Source: Bacteroidia bacterium (GTDB lineage Bacteria > Bacteroidota > Bacteroidia > UKL13-3). Taken from it: a stretch of DNA of 64,000 nucleotides. The stretch covers positions 1 to 64,000 of the forward strand of contig JAIOYZ010000002.1 of assembly GCA_021740845.1 (NCBI GenBank), given 5' to 3'. Of this stretch, positions 5,969 through 12,784 are shown one piece after another. A program made the translations under genes and the position numbers. The notes below the pieces were generated by a model, which made no database searches, had not been told where the DNA came from, and was given only the letters and a program-made list of their open reading frames with translations. Each line of letters starts with the position of its first letter. Position 1 is the stretch's first letter.

Positions 5969-6217
5969 ATGAAATTAAATAAAAATATTGCTGTAAGTGA
6001 GAATGGATTTATTTTTAATCCTTTGAGCGGTGATTCATTTTCTACAAATCCTATAGGACAAGAAATAGTGCGGTTGATGAAGGAGGGAAAAGAAAGAAAG
6101 GAAATTGTTTCTGCTTTGATGGATAAGTATGCAACCGATGAAGCCACCATTGAAAAGGATTTGAGCGATTTTTTTCAAATGTTGTTTTCCTACCAATTGA
6201 TTAACGAACATGAATAA
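5969..6217 (+). CDS. PqqD-like peptide-binding (RRE) protein
   Basis: This 82-residue protein has the pattern of PqqD-family domains: an N-terminal beta-rich part (MKLNKNIAVSENGFIFNP then a DSFSTNPIGQEIVRLM segment) followed by helices with ERKEIVSALMDKYATDEATIEKDLSDFF. PqqD domains bind leader peptides and hand substrates to modifying enzymes. The frame extends 11 codons upstream, but the ATG at 5969 gives the typical start, and the upstream part overlaps the GGTTTGAACC repeat. The stop overlaps the ATP-grasp gene start by 8 nt, so translation is probably coupled. No canonical precursor-peptide gene was seen nearby. Confidence 0.8.
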   Translation: MKLNKNIAVSENGFIFNPLSGDSFSTNPIGQEIVRLMKEGKERKEIVSALMDKYATDEATIEKDLSDFFQMLFSYQLINEHE

Positions 6218-7259
6218 GCGCAAAGTTTGTGTTGCCGTTTCTGGACTAAATAATATTGATAGTCCTGGGCCCGGAATTCCTGTTATTCGTGCTTTAAAGG
6301 AAAGTGCAGAGTTTGATGTTCGCATAATCGGTTTGTCGTACGAAAACCTAGAACCGGGTTTGTACATGCACGATTTGGTAGATAAATCCTACAGCATTCC
6401 ATTGCCTTCTTCTGGCATGGATAGCCTTCTACAACGTTTGGCTTATATTCATTCTATAGAAAAGTTAGATATGATTATTCCCAACTTCGACGCAGAATTG
6501 CATAGCTTTATCAAATTAGGTTCAAGACTAAAAACAGAATTTGGCATTGCTACCTTTATGCCAGATCTAGAAACTTTTGAATCACGACACAAATCTGTAT
6601 TGTTTGAATTTGGCGAAAAAAATGGGGTAATCGTTCCTAAAGCCAAAATGATTTATACCCCAAATGAAATTTATAAAGTTGGTCAAGAATTGGGTTATCC
6701 TTTAGTAGTAAAAGGTAAATATTATGATGCTAGTATTGCTGCAACTCCAGAACAAGCCGTAAACTATTTTCATAAGATTTCTAATAAATGGGGTTTGCCA
6801 ATTATTCTTCAGGAGTTTGTTTCTGGCAACGAAGTAAACGTAACTGCAATTGGTGATGGCAATGGAAATTGCATTGGCGCAGTACCCATGAGAAAATTAT
6901 ACATCACAGATAAAGGCAAGGCTTGGGCGGGAATTTCCTTACTAGACGAAGAACTAATTGATATCACCAACCGCGTTATTGGTAATTCTAAATGGCGTGG
7001 TGGTTGTGAGTTGGAATTTATAAAAACCAAAGAAAATAAATACTACTTATTAGAAATGAATCCTCGCTTTCCTGCTTGGGTTTATCTAGCTGTTGGCTGT
7101 GGTCAAAACCACCCAGAGGCTTTGGTGAAAATGGCTTTGGGATTAGAGCAAAAGCCTTTTGAATCCTATGAAAGTGGAAAGTTATTTGTTCGTTATAGCT
7201 TCGATCAAATTGTTAGTCTTTCTGAGTACGAAAAAATATCAACCTTGGGAGAATTGTAG
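6210..7259 (+). CDS. ATP-grasp ligase, CarB/PylC-like
   Basis: ATP-grasp enzymes activate a carboxylate as acyl phosphate and join it to an amine or thiol. The 349-residue product has an N-terminal Rossmann-like part (VCVAVSGLNNIDSPGPGIPV), a lid/lysine region (YPLVVKGKYYDASIA), the hinge IILQEFVSGNEVNVTA and the metal-binding pair CELEFIKT and EMNPRFPAW, whose Glu and Asn coordinate Mg. The overall shape is closest to carbamoyl-phosphate-synthase large-chain or PylC-type proteins. It overlaps the PqqD gene by 8 nt and precedes the decarboxylase by 45 nt, which suggests that it works on the same substrate. The substrate is unknown. Confidence 0.86.
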   Translation: MNKRKVCVAVSGLNNIDSPGPGIPVIRALKESAEFDVRIIGLSYENLEPGLYMHDLVDKSYSIPLPSSGMDSLLQRLAYIHSIEKLDMIIPNFDAELHSFIKLGSRLKTEFGIATFMPDLETFESRHKSVLFEFGEKNGVIVPKAKMIYTPNEIYKVGQELGYPLVVKGKYYDASIAATPEQAVNYFHKISNKWGLPIILQEFVSGNEVNVTAIGDGNGNCIGAVPMRKLYITDKGKAWAGISLLDEELIDITNRVIGNSKWRGGCELEFIKTKENKYYLLEMNPRFPAWVYLAVGCGQNHPEALVKMALGLEQKPFESYESGKLFVRYSFDQIVSLSEYEKISTLGEL

Positions 7260-7304
7260 TTCTTCATTATCATTTAAAAGTATAAAAATATTTAAAATAG
7301 TATC

Positions 7305-8663
7305 ATGGTTAAATTAAGTTACGAACGTCCAGTTATTCAAAAGTTGAATACAGGATCGATGAATAAATTTGGTACCCGAACAGAATATGCTCCTTTTACA
7401 CATATCGATAATGTGGCGGTAAAAGATTTAATAAAGGATTATGGTTCACCTCTTTTTGTAATAAGCGAACAACAAATTCGTAAGAATTACCAGCAAGCAA
7501 ATCGTGCCTTCAGAACTCGCTACCCTAAGGTTCAATTTGCTTGGAGCTATAAAACAAATTACCTAAATGCCGTTTGTAAAGTCTTTCATCAAGAGGGTGC
7601 TTGGGCCGAAGTGGTTTCCATTTTTGAATATAAAAAGGCATTAGGAAATGGGGTTCCAGGAAATAAAATTATTTTCAATGGTCCAGATAAAACAGAGGAA
7701 GATTTAGAATTAGCAGTGAACAATAATTCTTTAATTCATATCGATCATTTTGATGAGTTGTATATGTTGATTGAACTATTGCAACGCATCAATAAAAAGG
7801 CATCTGTTGCCATTCGTGTGAATATGGATACTGGCGTTTATCCTATCTGGGATAGGTTTGGATTTAATTACGAAAATGGTCAAGCTTGGAATGCCATTAA
7901 CAAAATTATGAGTCATCCCGAGTTGGAGCTTAACGGCTTGCATTGCCATATTGGAACCTATATGCTTAGCGCGGGTGCCTACGGAATTGCAGCTTGGAAG
8001 CTTTGTGATTTGGCGGTTAATATTAAAGCCAAATGGAATAAGGTTATTGATTACATCGATTTGGGTGGTGGATTTGCTTCAGCCAATACTTTAAAAGGTA
8101 GCTATTTGCAAGGCTCTGATATTATTCCAACCATGGAAGAATATGCAGATATCATTTCAAATACCATTCTTAATTTTGGGTTCAAACCGGATGAATTACC
8201 TACCTTATTTTTAGAAACTGGTAGAGCTTTAATTGATGATGCTGGCTACTTATGTGGTTCTGTTATTGCCAATAAACGCTTGAGTGATGGCCGCCGCGCA
8301 ACCATTATGGATTTTGGCGTGAACCTTTTATTTACCGCTTTTTGGTACAATCATAAAATAACACCTGCCCAAGAATTTTCTCACCACACAGAAGATATGG
8401 TAGTTTATGGTCCGCTTTGCATGAACATAGATTGCATTCGCGAGAGCATTAACTTGCCTTTACTTAACAAAGGAGATCAAGTGGTTGTGCATAGGGTAGG
8501 AGCATACAACATGACTCAATGGATGCAGTTTATTCAAATGCGCCCCAATGTGGTGATGATTGATACCAATAGCAAAGTGCATTTAATTCGCGATAAAGAA
8601 TCTTTGGAAACCATGCTGCGTTACGAAAAATTGCCGCTGCATTTGGAGAAGATTGATTTGTAA
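7305..8663 (+). CDS. PLP-dependent fold-III decarboxylase (LysA-like) with leader-like N-terminus
   Basis: This 452-residue fold-type III enzyme resembles diaminopimelate/ornithine decarboxylases. The PLP lysine is Lys83 in AWSYKTNY. Other motifs are LNGLHCHIGTY, DLGGGFAS (phosphate binding), LETGRALIDDAGYL and YGPLCMNIDC with the catalytic Cys. The C-terminal part (GAYNMTQWMQFIQMRPN) replaces the usual GAY-x6 motif of LysA. About 35 residues precede the barrel. They include Y6-E-R-P9-V-I11 followed by KLNTGSMNKFG, which resembles peptide leaders bound by PqqD domains. The gene lies third in the PqqD operon. A biosynthetic LysA role is possible but less likely given this context. Confidence 0.85.
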   Translation: MVKLSYERPVIQKLNTGSMNKFGTRTEYAPFTHIDNVAVKDLIKDYGSPLFVISEQQIRKNYQQANRAFRTRYPKVQFAWSYKTNYLNAVCKVFHQEGAWAEVVSIFEYKKALGNGVPGNKIIFNGPDKTEEDLELAVNNNSLIHIDHFDELYMLIELLQRINKKASVAIRVNMDTGVYPIWDRFGFNYENGQAWNAINKIMSHPELELNGLHCHIGTYMLSAGAYGIAAWKLCDLAVNIKAKWNKVIDYIDLGGGFASANTLKGSYLQGSDIIPTMEEYADIISNTILNFGFKPDELPTLFLETGRALIDDAGYLCGSVIANKRLSDGRRATIMDFGVNLLFTAFWYNHKITPAQEFSHHTEDMVVYGPLCMNIDCIRESINLPLLNKGDQVVVHRVGAYNMTQWMQFIQMRPNVVMIDTNSKVHLIRDKESLETMLRYEKLPLHLEKIDL

Positions 8664-8703
8664 TATTGCCAGTATCAAAAATAATTTGTAAGATGTGCCA
8701 CTT

Positions 8704-10887
8704 ATGCAATTGACTTTAAAAGATAAAGAGTTTTGGAACTATTGGATAGATGCCAATCTGCATAGTTATAGCCAAATCTTTTTTTCTTTAAATAAATTTT
8801 TTGCTGCCACAATTTTAGCGGTCACTTTTTTTAATCCTAGTGTTGGAATATTTGGTTTGCTAGCCGTTTTTATTACCAATTTATTGGCCTATGTTTTTGG
8901 TTTTAACCGACAAGAAATTAAGGAAGGGATTTATGGTTTCAATGCCTTGTTATTGGGCTTGTCTTTAGGATTTGCGTATGAGGTAAGTGGTGCTTTTTGG
9001 TTATTATTTATCATTGCATTGTTTTGCTTATTGGTATTAACAGCTGTTTTTAAAGGAACTTTCTCCAAGTCTAATTTACCATTCCTGAGCTTTCCATTTC
9101 TTATTTGTTATTGGATGATTTCTTTGGCAGCTTCCGAGTTGCAAGAAATTCATCCAAGAGTTTTAGGTCTGTTTGAACCTAATTCAGGTAGTCTTTTAAA
9201 TACATTGCAACACAGTTTGGATCAAACCGAAATGCCAGTTTTATTGGTTACATTTTTTAAAACCTTAGCTGCAACATTTTTTATACAATCTGTTTTAGGT
9301 GGAATGCTCATTGCTATTGCCTTATTCCTTTTTTCTAGAATTACTTTTTCATTGGCATTTTTAGGCTTCATTTCTGCCTTTTTTGTGTATGCTTTATTTG
9401 GCGCCAATACAAATGATTTGTCAGCTAATTTAGTTGGTTCAAACTATATCTTTTTTGCTATTGCCATTGGTGGCTTTTACCTTATACCCAATACCTTTTC
9501 TTATCTCGCAAGCATCTTACTCATTCCTGTTTTGATGTTATTGCATATTGCATTAGAGAAATTAATGAAGGGTTTAGAGCTAAAAACATTCACCTTGGCT
9601 TTTAGTTTATTAACTACATTTTTCTTATACGCGCTTCACCATCGCTGGTTACATAGGTTTTTGCATTTAGTAACATGGCAATATTATTCTGCAGAGAAAA
9701 CAGTTTACAAATACCTTAATTCTATTTCTAGGTTCAACCAAGCCCACCTTAAAAAAATTACTTTACCTTTTTGGGGTGAGTGGCAAGTAAGCCAAGGTTA
9801 CGATGGTAATATAACCCACTTGGGCGATTGGAGTAAGGCACTTGATTTTGTAATTCAAGATGAAGAGAAAAAAACTTACTCTTCAGTGGGAATTCATTTA
9901 AGCGATTTCTATTGTTATAACAAACCTGTTTTAGCTCCTGCAGATGGGTATGTTTATGAAATTATTAATCATGTTGAAGACAACCAAATAGGAGAGGTAG
10001 ATACAACTCAAAATTGGGGAAATACCATTGTTCTAAATCATTTGGATGGTGTTTATACTCAATTAAGTCATATCAAAAAAGATTCGTTTAAAGTGGCTGT
10101 TGGAGATTTTGTAACTAAGGGGACTATTCTCGCAACCTGCGGCAGTAGCGGCCGTTCTCCAGAGCCGCATTTGCATTTTCAAATTCAAAACTCCCCAAAA
10201 GTTGGAGCAAAAACTGTAGATTATCCTTTGGCTTATTTTTTAGAAGTAAAGGATAATAAATCCCTCGAGCTTAAATTATACCAAGTGCCCAAGGAGGGAA
10301 GTGTTATCTCAAATGTTGAACCCAATAAATTAATTTCTCATGCTTTTAATTTGGCACCAGGTAAAAAATTGTCTTTCTTTAAAGTGGAGAAACAAGAAAT
10401 AATTTCATGGGAGGTTTTTACAGATGAATGGAATAGGTTATATCTGTTTGAACCTAAAACACAATCCTATGCATACTTTATTTGTGATGGTACACGCTTT
10501 TATTTTACAGATTTTGAAGGAACAAAAAAGAGTGATTTGTTTCAGTTTTATAGTGCTTGTTACAGTATTTTATTGGGTGCCTATCCTCAAATAAAAATGA
10601 AAGATCAACTGCCTTTAATTCACTTTAATTTTCCATTCCTAATTTGGATTCAAGATGTGCTTTCTCCATTTAAATTGTTTACTCAGGTGCAATACCAAAG
10701 TGAAATTTCTCAAATGGATCCAAGTATTTCTATGCAGTATATTCATATAAAAAGCAGTGTTCAGGCTATCTTACTTCAACAAAAATTGAGTAGCTCTTCT
10801 TACCTTATTAAACTCAATACAAATGGCATCCAGGAAATAGAATTACAAACTAGTAATGGAAAGGAGCAATGGATTTGTCAAAATTAG
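8704..10887 (+). CDS. Urea-transporter-like membrane domain fused to M23 peptidase
   Basis: The N-terminal half (about residues 20-330) is a polytopic membrane domain with the urea-transporter signature GIYGFNALLLGLSLG and a second PF-rich segment. A periplasmic M23 (LytM/lysostaphin) domain follows at about 350-515. It has the THLGDWSKALDF segment (metal His and Asp with a spaced form also seen in related M23 proteins), the HLDGVYTQLSHI strand and the GRSPEPHLHFQI HxH site. A beta-rich C-terminal part of about 200 residues follows. M23 enzymes cleave peptidoglycan cross-bridges. GTG at 8695 is an alternative start. The end overlaps the YaiO gene by 19 nt, so the operon continues. Transported substrate is unknown. 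Confidence 0.84.
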   Translation: MQLTLKDKEFWNYWIDANLHSYSQIFFSLNKFFAATILAVTFFNPSVGIFGLLAVFITNLLAYVFGFNRQEIKEGIYGFNALLLGLSLGFAYEVSGAFWLLFIIALFCLLVLTAVFKGTFSKSNLPFLSFPFLICYWMISLAASELQEIHPRVLGLFEPNSGSLLNTLQHSLDQTEMPVLLVTFFKTLAATFFIQSVLGGMLIAIALFLFSRITFSLAFLGFISAFFVYALFGANTNDLSANLVGSNYIFFAIAIGGFYLIPNTFSYLASILLIPVLMLLHIALEKLMKGLELKTFTLAFSLLTTFFLYALHHRWLHRFLHLVTWQYYSAEKTVYKYLNSISRFNQAHLKKITLPFWGEWQVSQGYDGNITHLGDWSKALDFVIQDEEKKTYSSVGIHLSDFYCYNKPVLAPADGYVYEIINHVEDNQIGEVDTTQNWGNTIVLNHLDGVYTQLSHIKKDSFKVAVGDFVTKGTILATCGSSGRSPEPHLHFQIQNSPKVGAKTVDYPLAYFLEVKDNKSLELKLYQVPKEGSVISNVEPNKLISHAFNLAPGKKLSFFKVEKQEIISWEVFTDEWNRLYLFEPKTQSYAYFICDGTRFYFTDFEGTKKSDLFQFYSACYSILLGAYPQIKMKDQLPLIHFNFPFLIWIQDVLSPFKLFTQVQYQSEISQMDPSISMQYIHIKSSVQAILLQQKLSSSSYLIKLNTNGIQEIELQTSNGKEQWICQN

Positions 10888-12188
10888 TATGCCTTCTTTT
10901 TATTGTTTTTTGGAGCAACAGTTCCTTTGCTTTAAGCTACAAGGAAGTAGATAGTTTAACCTATTTTCATTATCAAAATGCAAACTATAAATTGGTTCAA
11001 ACCATAGGTAAAGAAGCGTTAAAGGAGAATATAGATTTTTATTATTTGAGAGTTCGATTAGGTCTTTCTTATTATTTTGAGAGCAATTTTGAAAATGCTT
11101 GGCCACACTTATTAAAGGCTGTAGATATGAATCCTTCTGATAAGGAAATTCTGAAATATACGTATCAAAGTTTGGTACTTACTTCACAAAACGAAGTTGC
11201 CAATGAGTTCTTGGTAAAATATCCTCAAACCAATAATGAAATAAAACCTTTGTCAAAGGGCTTAAATAAAATTGAGTTTGAATCTGGAAATATTTTTTCA
11301 AATAATGAAAAGGAATTTTACGGGAAACCTTTATCAGAAATAGGAAATTATTACGAGGGTAATTTCTTTTCAAATATGAAAATTATAAGGGTTTATTTGG
11401 AAGGGAAAATTAGTCCAGATTTATCCTATTCTTTAGGTGTAAATTTGTTTGAAACAACTCATCTTTCCAAGTTTAAATTTAGCACTCAAGATATTGAAAC
11501 CTATCACCAAAACGACAATTATCAATTTAATGCTGGGGTATCAAAACTGTTTAAATCAAATGGGAAACTAGGATATTCTGTTGCCTATTACCGCCAGAAT
11601 TTCTCCTATCCTTATACCATTTCCAGAGCCTCATCTGTGCCGCCATTGCCTGTAATGATTAGAGATAGCATAGAAAAAACTTCTGAGCTTTCTATGAGTT
11701 TGTTTTACTCTAAACGTATGAAATTTATTGAGCCCATAATATTTCTAAACTATGGAACCTTCGATTTATCAGATAACCTTCAGGCAGAATTAGGCCTAAC
11801 TTATTTTCCTTTGGGTCACGATAGATTGTATGCTTATTCGAGCGTTTCTTATTTAAATAATTCCATTAATACAGGCTTTGCCTTTAATCAGAAAATTGGG
11901 TTCGGTTTGAACCAAAAGTTTGCGCTAGAAGCTAATTTTTTAGGTGGGAAACTTGGAAACTATATGGGCTCTGCTGGTTTCATAACATTGAATACTTTTG
12001 ATCCCATAAATTACTCTACTGGTTTAAACCTTAGCATTAATACTCCTAAAGTTAGCATCGTGCCTTCCTATAGATTTCAAATGCGCGAAATGGAATATTT
12101 CACAGAAAACTCACCTGGGAATTTTGTTTCCCATACACACAACTATTATTCACATTTATTTTATATAACATTAAGATGGAAACTATAA
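10869..12188 (+). CDS. YaiO-family outer-membrane beta-barrel with N-terminal TPR
   Basis: The 439-residue protein begins with a signal peptide (LVCLLFIVFWSNSSFALS), then has a TPR-like helical region (about 25-120) and a beta-barrel (about 150-439) that ends in the outer-membrane type terminus YITLRWKL. The layout matches YaiO-family barrels. It is presumably exported to the outer membrane, where it could take up or release a product made by the upstream enzymes. The gene overlaps its neighbours on both sides (19 nt and 13 nt), which strongly supports one operon. Confidence 0.76.
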   Translation: MDLSKLVCLLFIVFWSNSSFALSYKEVDSLTYFHYQNANYKLVQTIGKEALKENIDFYYLRVRLGLSYYFESNFENAWPHLLKAVDMNPSDKEILKYTYQSLVLTSQNEVANEFLVKYPQTNNEIKPLSKGLNKIEFESGNIFSNNEKEFYGKPLSEIGNYYEGNFFSNMKIIRVYLEGKISPDLSYSLGVNLFETTHLSKFKFSTQDIETYHQNDNYQFNAGVSKLFKSNGKLGYSVAYYRQNFSYPYTISRASSVPPLPVMIRDSIEKTSELSMSLFYSKRMKFIEPIIFLNYGTFDLSDNLQAELGLTYFPLGHDRLYAYSSVSYLNNSINTGFAFNQKIGFGLNQKFALEANFLGGKLGNYMGSAGFITLNTFDPINYSTGLNLSINTPKVSIVPSYRFQMREMEYFTENSPGNFVSHTHNYYSHLFYITLRWKL

Positions 12189-12784
12189 AAAAAACAATCT
12201 TGCTTTGCTTTTTACTGCTTGCAATTAATGCCCATTCGCAAACCTTAACCGAGGCTTTTGCTAAAAGTTATGCTACCGAAAAAGTAGGAAATTACAAAGA
12301 TGCTATTGCCGCAATTCAAACCAAATACGAACCCAATTCTTATGAAATGAACTTGCGTTTAGGTTGGCTTTTTTATCAGGATAAAAAATACCCAGAATCT
12401 ATTTCTTATTACCAAAAAGCAAAAGCCATTTTTCCTAATTCCACAGAGCCATTATGGGGAATGATTTACCCTTTAAGCGCGCAAGAAAAATGGAATGGCG
12501 TGGATCAAGTTTATAAAGACATTCTAAAATTAGACCCAACTAATTCAAAAGCCAATTACTATCTAGGTTCAATCTTTTATTATAGAAAAGACTATAACCA
12601 AGCCAAGAAATATTTTATAGAAGTGGTTAAACTTTATCCTTTCGATCACGACTCTAATTTGCTTTTAGCTTGGTGTCAATATTTTTTAGGTAATAAAACA
12701 GAAGCCAAGGGTTTGTTCACTAGAGCTTTATTGAACCAACCTACTGATGCATCGGCCTTGGAAGGACTTTCTTTGATTAAATAA
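12176..12784 (+). CDS. Periplasmic TPR protein
   Basis: The 202-residue product has a signal peptide (ILLCFLLLAINAHS) and about four tetratricopeptide repeats, such as YYLGSIFYYRKDYNQAKKYF and LLLAWCQYFLGNKTEAKGLF. TPRs are protein-protein scaffolds. It is the last gene of the PqqD operon and starts 13 nt before the barrel gene ends, so it may form a complex with the barrel, whose own N-terminus is TPR-like. Confidence 0.8.
   Translation: METIKKTILLCFLLLAINAHSQTLTEAFAKSYATEKVGNYKDAIAAIQTKYEPNSYEMNLRLGWLFYQDKKYPESISYYQKAKAIFPNSTEPLWGMIYPLSAQEKWNGVDQVYKDILKLDPTNSKANYYLGSIFYYRKDYNQAKKYFIEVVKLYPFDHDSNLLLAWCQYFLGNKTEAKGLFTRALLNQPTDASALEGLSLIK

Follow-up and report, generated by a model that had tools for sequence, protein, structure and literature searches.

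A PqqD-like protein probably docks on a leader-like tail of the adjacent decarboxylase in a conserved Bacteroidota operon

In many Bacteroidota, a system for recognising peptides appears to serve a new purpose, the docking of an enzyme. In the window (the whole stretch of DNA analysed here, 64,000 nucleotides, from an assembly of 4.09 Mb rated 100% complete by a completeness estimate), a PqqD-like discrete RRE probably docks on a FigC-like decarboxylase by way of a leader fused to it, likely bridging that enzyme to an ATP-grasp ligase, with no precursor peptide needed. Docking on the enzyme itself had been proposed from the letters of the DNA alone (the sequence-only reading), and the proposal is supported by the conservation of the motif, the co-occurrence of the two genes, the residues of the PqqD pocket and a paired change between leader and pocket, the binding itself being predicted.

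A six-gene operon conserved in Bacteroidota

Six genes run on the + strand from 5969 to 12784, with the PqqD-like gene first, as had been read, and a TPR gene last. The PqqD-like discrete RRE (82 aa, 5969–6217; PF05402, E 5e-12) lies upstream of both enzymes, its gene overlapping by 8 bases that of the ATP-grasp ligase (349 aa, 6210–7259; PF15632, PF02786 and PF02655 above their cut-offs, nearest PDB entry 2pn1). The decarboxylase ORF follows (452 aa, 7305–8663, ATG start). Its N-terminus reads MVKLSYERPVIQKLNTGSMNKFG, and the protein consists of an N-terminal tail (residues 1–33, 7305–7403) and an alanine-racemase-fold PLP decarboxylase body resembling FigC and FslC (7404–8660; PF02784, 5e-29; K83, C372-M373 and Y401). 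Beyond it are a fusion of a urea-transporter (UT) domain with an M23 peptidase domain (730 aa, 8695–10887; PF03253, 1.3e-53, and PF01551, 2.6e-16), a 439-aa protein with a signal-peptide-like start and, by eye, a beta-barrel-like sequence (10869–12188), and the TPR protein (202 aa, 12176–12784; TPR_2, 5e-18). The 439-aa protein is a conserved operon member with no Pfam match and no PDB match at E 0.1.

The UT/M23 family lies downstream on the same strand in 105/106 loci, and the TPR and 439-aa families are present in 82/106 and 71/106, respectively. The operon is thus conserved in Bacteroidota and apparently undescribed; the open-licence PMC literature yielded neither a PqqD/ATP-grasp/decarboxylase operon nor an RRE leader on an enzyme. 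In the UT/M23 protein, the candidate zinc ligands H375, D384, H492 and H494 are among the columns that are at least 95% conserved (92 rows).

Collection of relatives

A search for relatives kept 80 of 133 loci. For an unbiased search, a profile was built from residues 34–452 of ten aligned members, leaving the motif out. Run against whole genomes, this core profile found the decarboxylase in 34/395 genomes of a phylum sample and 77/395 of a class sample (5 shared between them). Around the genomes with Phe at residue 6 of the decarboxylase (F-type genomes), it found the family in 8/128, 1/98 and 8/78 genomes and, in one family sample, in 36/390. Every match in the phylum sample scored at least 525 bits and the interval down to the 1e-60 limit was empty, which gives the family sharp bounds in that sample; fragments of the gene score lower in the class sample and the one-family sample. 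The resulting 276 loci, which leave out 5 of the 72 new class-sample genomes (G430, G563, G611, G623 and G655) and some family-sample genomes, collapse to 207 distinct sequences and to 113 representatives less than 90% identical.

A conserved leader-like motif ahead of the decarboxylase fold

Residues 6–11 of the decarboxylase (YERPVI, 7320–7337, +) fit [Y/W]xxPx[L/V/I], the motif read by lasso-type RREs, and the Tyr6-x-x-Pro9-x-Ile11 spacing first noticed by eye holds in both residues and positions. The motif also lies ahead of the LysA-like barrel, as had been stated: the Pfam barrel match begins at residue 64, the best PDB alignment covers the protein from residue 29, and the fold starts at about residue 29–34. 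The glycine said to follow the motif was correct in part. A conserved glycine exists (G17, at Y+11), but the consensus of lasso leaders has its glycine at Y+9, where the tail has N15 and so differs from those leaders.

The pattern [YF]xxPx[ILV] is present in 207/207 distinct relatives, with Y in 176 and F in 31 at residue 6, and I in 196, L in 6 and V in 5 at residue 11. Counted by locus it appears in 275/276, many of these being repeats of one genome, and the sole exception (L205) is a decarboxylase gene interrupted by a stop. All 80 loci kept by the search for relatives have it, each with an ATP-grasp gene immediately 5', as do all 34 family-positive genomes of the 395-genome phylum sample, which were found by the enzyme core with the motif excluded. 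Among the 113 representatives, whose pairwise identity has a median of 0.65 and a minimum of 0.44 (2,000-pair sample), P9 is invariant (113), E7 occurs in 111, residue 6 is Y in 108 and F in 5, and residue 11 is I in 105, L in 5 and V in 3. Residue 8 is R in 92, S in 11, K in 9 and G in 1, and residue 10 is free; the variable positions are those left open in the RRE consensus. An alignment of orthologues had been suggested as a check on Y6, P9 and I11, with poor conservation counting against the idea, and conservation proved strong in both the 113 representatives and the 207 sequences. A second block, G17-S-M-N20-K21-F22-G23 (7353–7373, +), is a candidate second contact or acceptor site, with G17 in 110, N20 in 101, K21 in 112 and G23 in 112 of the representatives.

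The segment could also be an ordinary conserved N-terminal arm (for example a dimer-exchange arm) unrelated to PqqD, since the motif is about as well conserved as the barrel and the second conserved block runs on towards the fold. Ranked by conservation among the 452 positions of the decarboxylase, the motif residues stand in the upper part without being outliers (P9 1st, E7 100th, Y6 128th and I11 155th), and 38% of barrel columns have an entropy below 0.5, that is, are conserved as strongly as the motif residues; the conservation of the motif is therefore no proof by itself of a separate role. However, AF2 leaves the tail unfolded. Residues 1–27 have a pLDDT below 50 (36–44 per block) and no secondary structure, with values above 90 from about residue 31 over most of the barrel, although the input held 37 closely related sequences and low pLDDT may also reflect too little information. 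On this model, the tail would be a conserved yet unfolded stretch, as expected of a linear binding motif. All six distant homologues (an own-genome paralogue and five plasmid genes, 24–28% identity), a small and remote control, also lack the motif in the stretch before the barrel, 60 residues at most, and in the 4.3 kb or less examined around these six we found no PqqD or ATP-grasp gene. The spacing and the permitted residues are those of RRE ligands, and the tail covaries with a PqqD residue known to touch that position. With conservation, AF2 model, outgroups and paired change taken together, we consider an ordinary extension very unlikely.

PqqD and decarboxylase occur together

In the phylum sample, the PqqD subfamily (at least 50 bits) and the decarboxylase mark the identical 34/395 Bacteroidota genomes. 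Nine other genomes of the 395 carry weaker PqqD matches only (31.7–40 bits), and one genome (G119) has such a match beside its own strong one. In 261/276 loci a same-strand PqqD gene precedes the decarboxylase. The remaining 15 have less than 1,400 bases of upstream DNA, and PqqD is present for the five of these genes that were read with more. Likewise, among the 80 loci kept by the search for relatives PqqD is upstream in 74, and the other six meet a contig end within 150–973 bases. Equally strong conservation in homologues lacking a PqqD partner had been named as evidence against docking; across the 276 loci, no family member without PqqD was found.

An alternative is that the PqqD-like protein serves a separate, unlinked precursor peptide, with the decarboxylase tail as a secondary or competing ligand. 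Such precursors are the usual ligands of discrete RREs, and our search of the window's own genome was restricted to YE[RKSHNQ]PxI, so other YxxPxL peptides would be missed. This search gave 8 matches, equal to the 8 of a reversed-pattern control, and among them the decarboxylase's alone falls close to the beginning of a long ORF. A scan for M..Y[ED].P.[ILV] ORFs in the 80 relatives' loci and the window gave 12 scattered other ORFs with no shared family by eye; small ORFs with an early Y[ED]xPx[ILV] are thus not recurrent near the operon. In addition, the genome has a single PqqD (one PF05402 match) and a single copy of the tail sequence, and leader and PqqD change together. We give an unlinked precursor little probability. 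The claim of a leader fused to an enzyme instead of a precursor agrees with these results, the motif being on the 452-aa decarboxylase with no motif-bearing precursor found nearby.

The PqqD-like protein has the pocket of a leader-binding RRE

The PqqD-like protein belongs to Pfam PqqD (PF05402, 46.4 bits against a gathering score of 23.4). By profile, its nearest PDB entries are TbiB1 (7.4e-12), TfuB1 (1.8e-7), PbaB1 (5.7e-4) and the PqqD of PQQ biosynthesis (4.7e-3), and the structures of TbiB1 and TfuB1 were both solved with leader bound. Its AF2 model (pLDDT 87) has three strands followed by three helices, and the best Foldseek matches are leader-bound TbiB1 (5V1U and 5V1V, TM 0.83–0.90; 5V1U 0.87–0.90), followed by 6JX3. 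An identity as PQQ-biosynthesis PqqD was rejected (TIGR03859, 20.2 bits against an equivalog cut-off of 46).

In the LppB complex (PMC13381572), the leader Tyr is held by a hydrogen bond from D70, N33 grips the backbone where the Pro makes a kink, the Pro itself sits between V35 and F74, and a second pocket is formed by F74, M78 and L83; binding is almost abolished by N33A and weakened by D70A. An ungapped alignment to PbaB1 (9x90) places N27, I29, D64, F68, L72 and L77 of the PqqD-like protein at these contact positions, with the 9x90 chain numbered 18 above that report, an offset deduced from five of its residues, all fitting. Asn27 (codon 6047–6049, +) is the equivalent of LppB N33 and PbaB1 G42, and Asp64 (codon 6158–6160, +) that of LppB D70 and PbaB1 Q79. 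Across 101 representatives, position 27 is N in 101, position 64 is D in 96 (Y 4, H 1), position 68 is F in 92 (Y 5, L 4), position 72 is L in 97, and position 77 is L in 83, I in 17 and V in 1; Asn27 is further kept in 174/174 unique rows. By these equivalent pocket residues the PqqD-like protein would be a discrete RRE of the YxxPxL-binding kind.

The flexible tail of the decarboxylase would then be a genuine RRE-recognition sequence, which the PqqD-like protein, as a lasso B1-type RRE, would bind as an additional beta strand. The first pocket (Asp64, Asn27, Ile29 and Phe68) would take Tyr6 and Pro9, and the second (Phe68, Leu72 and Leu77) would take Ile11.

Outside the leader pocket, a hairpin (G13-F14-x-F16-N17-P18-x-x-G21-D22-S23) is strongly conserved, with G13, F16 and G21 in 101/101; a second docking face at residues 13–24 is possible. 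No natural PqqD fusions were seen among 75 loci, where the PqqD open frames measure 81–163 aa from stop to stop.

A paired change of leader residue 6 and PqqD position 64

In loci whose leader carries Phe at residue 6, PqqD lacks the Asp that would bond the Tyr. In 193 paired rows, which leave out three loci with the motif YESPTI (L067, L069 and L073), the leader–PqqD combinations are Y-D in 164, Y-N in 1, F-Y in 26, F-H in 1 and F-F in 1. A strict recount over the 207 sequences, of which 12 have no PqqD in the stretch covered and 1 has a cut PqqD (L297), gives Y-D 163, Y-N 1, F-Y 28, F-H 1 and F-F 1, and for 174 unique cores the counts are Y-D 160, F-Y 12, F-H 1 and Y-N 1. Among 846 columns of PqqD, the decarboxylase core and the ATP-grasp ligase, PqqD column 64 follows the leader residue most closely, with a normalised mutual information of 0.919 against 0.813 for the next (ATP-grasp column 283), and it is the sole column in which Y rows and F rows have no residue in common. 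Crystal structures had already singled out this very position. Because the pocket residues and this paired change both point to contact, we favour a direct contact between PqqD and the tail.

All exchanges between Y and F are confined to one clade. On trees built without the tail and PqqD, the later of them a quick tree, the leader changes twice and column 64 three or four times. An independent-pairs test is not significant (p 0.5), because the leader changed independently only twice, within that clade. Two orders and a family near the F-type genomes were sampled in addition, and the number of leader changes remained at two. Inside the clade, 32/846 columns separate the 3 Y rows from the 28 F rows, so a clade-internal test is uninformative. 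The paired change is strong in place and weak in number of events.

Column 283 of the ATP-grasp ligase (6210–7259) is F in Y-leader rows and L or I in F-leader rows, a pattern that might reflect contact or shared ancestry only.

The decarboxylase and a possible role for docking

With PF02784 and PF00278 both above cut-off, the enzyme is an alanine-racemase-fold PLP decarboxylase, and the catalytic residues are largely kept in 202 cores (PLP-lysine motif 191, GPLCM 197, GAY 200). Its best PDB match is 7kh2 (1.4e-60). The best NCBIfam match is FslC (NF041039), at 237 bits against a curated cut-off of 500, which leaves it outside that family, and a LysA identity was rejected on the same kind of comparison (TIGR01048, 215.7 bits against 297.9). 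The genome carries a separate paralogue (G000:C35), the one used among the distant homologues above (L002). The FigC study (PMC7857480) describes a free small molecule, N-citrylornithine, as substrate, and a catalytic loop with Cys354 then Met355, the latter stacking, in a model, against the aliphatic portion of that substrate. The aligned residues of our decarboxylase are C372-M373. By analogy, the C-M loop would favour as substrate an amino acid that is acylated or amide-linked, rather than a free diamino acid, and the ATP-grasp ligase could supply such a compound.

The RRE would most likely be an adaptor that holds the decarboxylase beside the ATP-grasp ligase, so that the ligase can pass its product, an amide-linked amino acid, to the FigC-like enzyme; taken alone, this bridging has slightly better than an even chance of being right. 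The urea-transporter/M23 protein of the inner membrane and two envelope proteins, all encoded in the operon, may then handle what the decarboxylase releases, a step in which we infer transport.

The tail might instead be a carrier, presented by PqqD to the ATP-grasp ligase, which would load the conserved block with an amino acid (at Lys21, for example) for decarboxylation by the same polypeptide or its dimer partner. The second block (G17..N20-K21-F22-G23) does lie beyond the motif in the predicted-flexible stretch with K21 in 112/113, and BtrK is among the nearest decarboxylases of solved structure, as is an entry titled 'L-glutamyl-[BtrI acyl-carrier protein] decarboxylase'. The block could, however, equally contact the ATP-grasp ligase or the barrel. 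FigC, the closest characterised relative, speaks to both sides (PMC7857480), its substrate being an acylated amino acid but also a free small molecule. We regard a carrier tail as improbable, and the same holds for a bolder form, in which a RiPP-type recognition system has become a device for assembling small molecules and the tail combines a leader and a built-in carrier whose own cargo is decarboxylated and released via the urea-transporter/M23 protein.

Relation to known systems

Four known systems come closest to the docking that we favour. With the discrete lasso RREs (TbiB1, TfuB1/FusB1 and PbaB1) and LppB, the PqqD-like protein shares the PqqD fold, sequence and Asn/Asp/Phe pocket residues, and with YxxP/WxxP lasso leaders the tail shares Pro at Y+3 and Ile, Leu or Val at Y+5. 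Unlike in lasso systems, the leader here is on a 452-aa enzyme and not on a precursor peptide; by Pfam, no lasso leader peptidase (B2) or cyclase (C) was found among the six operon proteins, five of which were also compared with NCBIfam. The decarboxylase has the PLP lysine, the catalytic-loop Cys then Met and the GAY tyrosine of FigC and FslC, and differs in its partner, an ATP-grasp ligase in place of an NIS synthetase, and in its extra N-terminal tail.

In butirosin biosynthesis, BtrJ and BtrK are an ATP-grasp enzyme and a LysA-like decarboxylase that act on an amino acid bound to an acyl carrier protein. The pairing of enzymes is the same here, and BtrK is among the PDB matches, whereas no acyl carrier protein was seen in the operon, an RRE standing in its place. 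In borosins and other precursor–enzyme fusions the fused part is a RiPP substrate core. Like borosins, the decarboxylase carries recognition sequence and enzyme on one polypeptide; unlike them, its motif would be read by a separate RRE, and no core was identified.

RREs serve as markers of RiPP clusters, and in the RRE-Finder report almost 8,000 proteins fall under the discrete-lasso model with only about 4,000 co-occurring with lasso enzymes (PMC7470986). The operon offers a concrete job for some orphan RREs, namely docking an enzyme that has its own leader. This would widen the role of leader recognition and caution against taking PqqD as an automatic sign of a peptide product. It would also provide a natural pair of short tag and 82-aa binder, including a natural variant pair in which a Phe leader is matched by Tyr, His or Phe at position 64, and it makes the function of a conserved six-gene Bacteroidota operon testable.

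Variation around the operon

The genes 5' of the operon are variable (for example at L011:6543–8281), with a LytTR response regulator family in 25/106 loci, an acetyltransferase family in 22/106 and a histidine kinase family in 19/106 (names from Pfam, one member each). In two loci, PqqD and the ATP-grasp gene are separated by an additional gene whose product looks secreted (L072:2566–3375 and L117:5929–7923). A phage origin of the operon proteins was rejected, as PHROGs gave for three proteins one weak ATP-grasp match (E 3.7e-7, function unknown), and so was a defence origin, as PADLOC matched none of the six proteins. One genome (G124) has equal-scoring operon copies (L114 and L115) near both ends of contig C1, probably the untrimmed overlap of a circular chromosome. 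Finally, the operon occurs in records titled Kuenenia (L014) and Bifidobacterium (L082) with 75–76% protein identity to the window, and these titles of metagenome bins are probably wrong.
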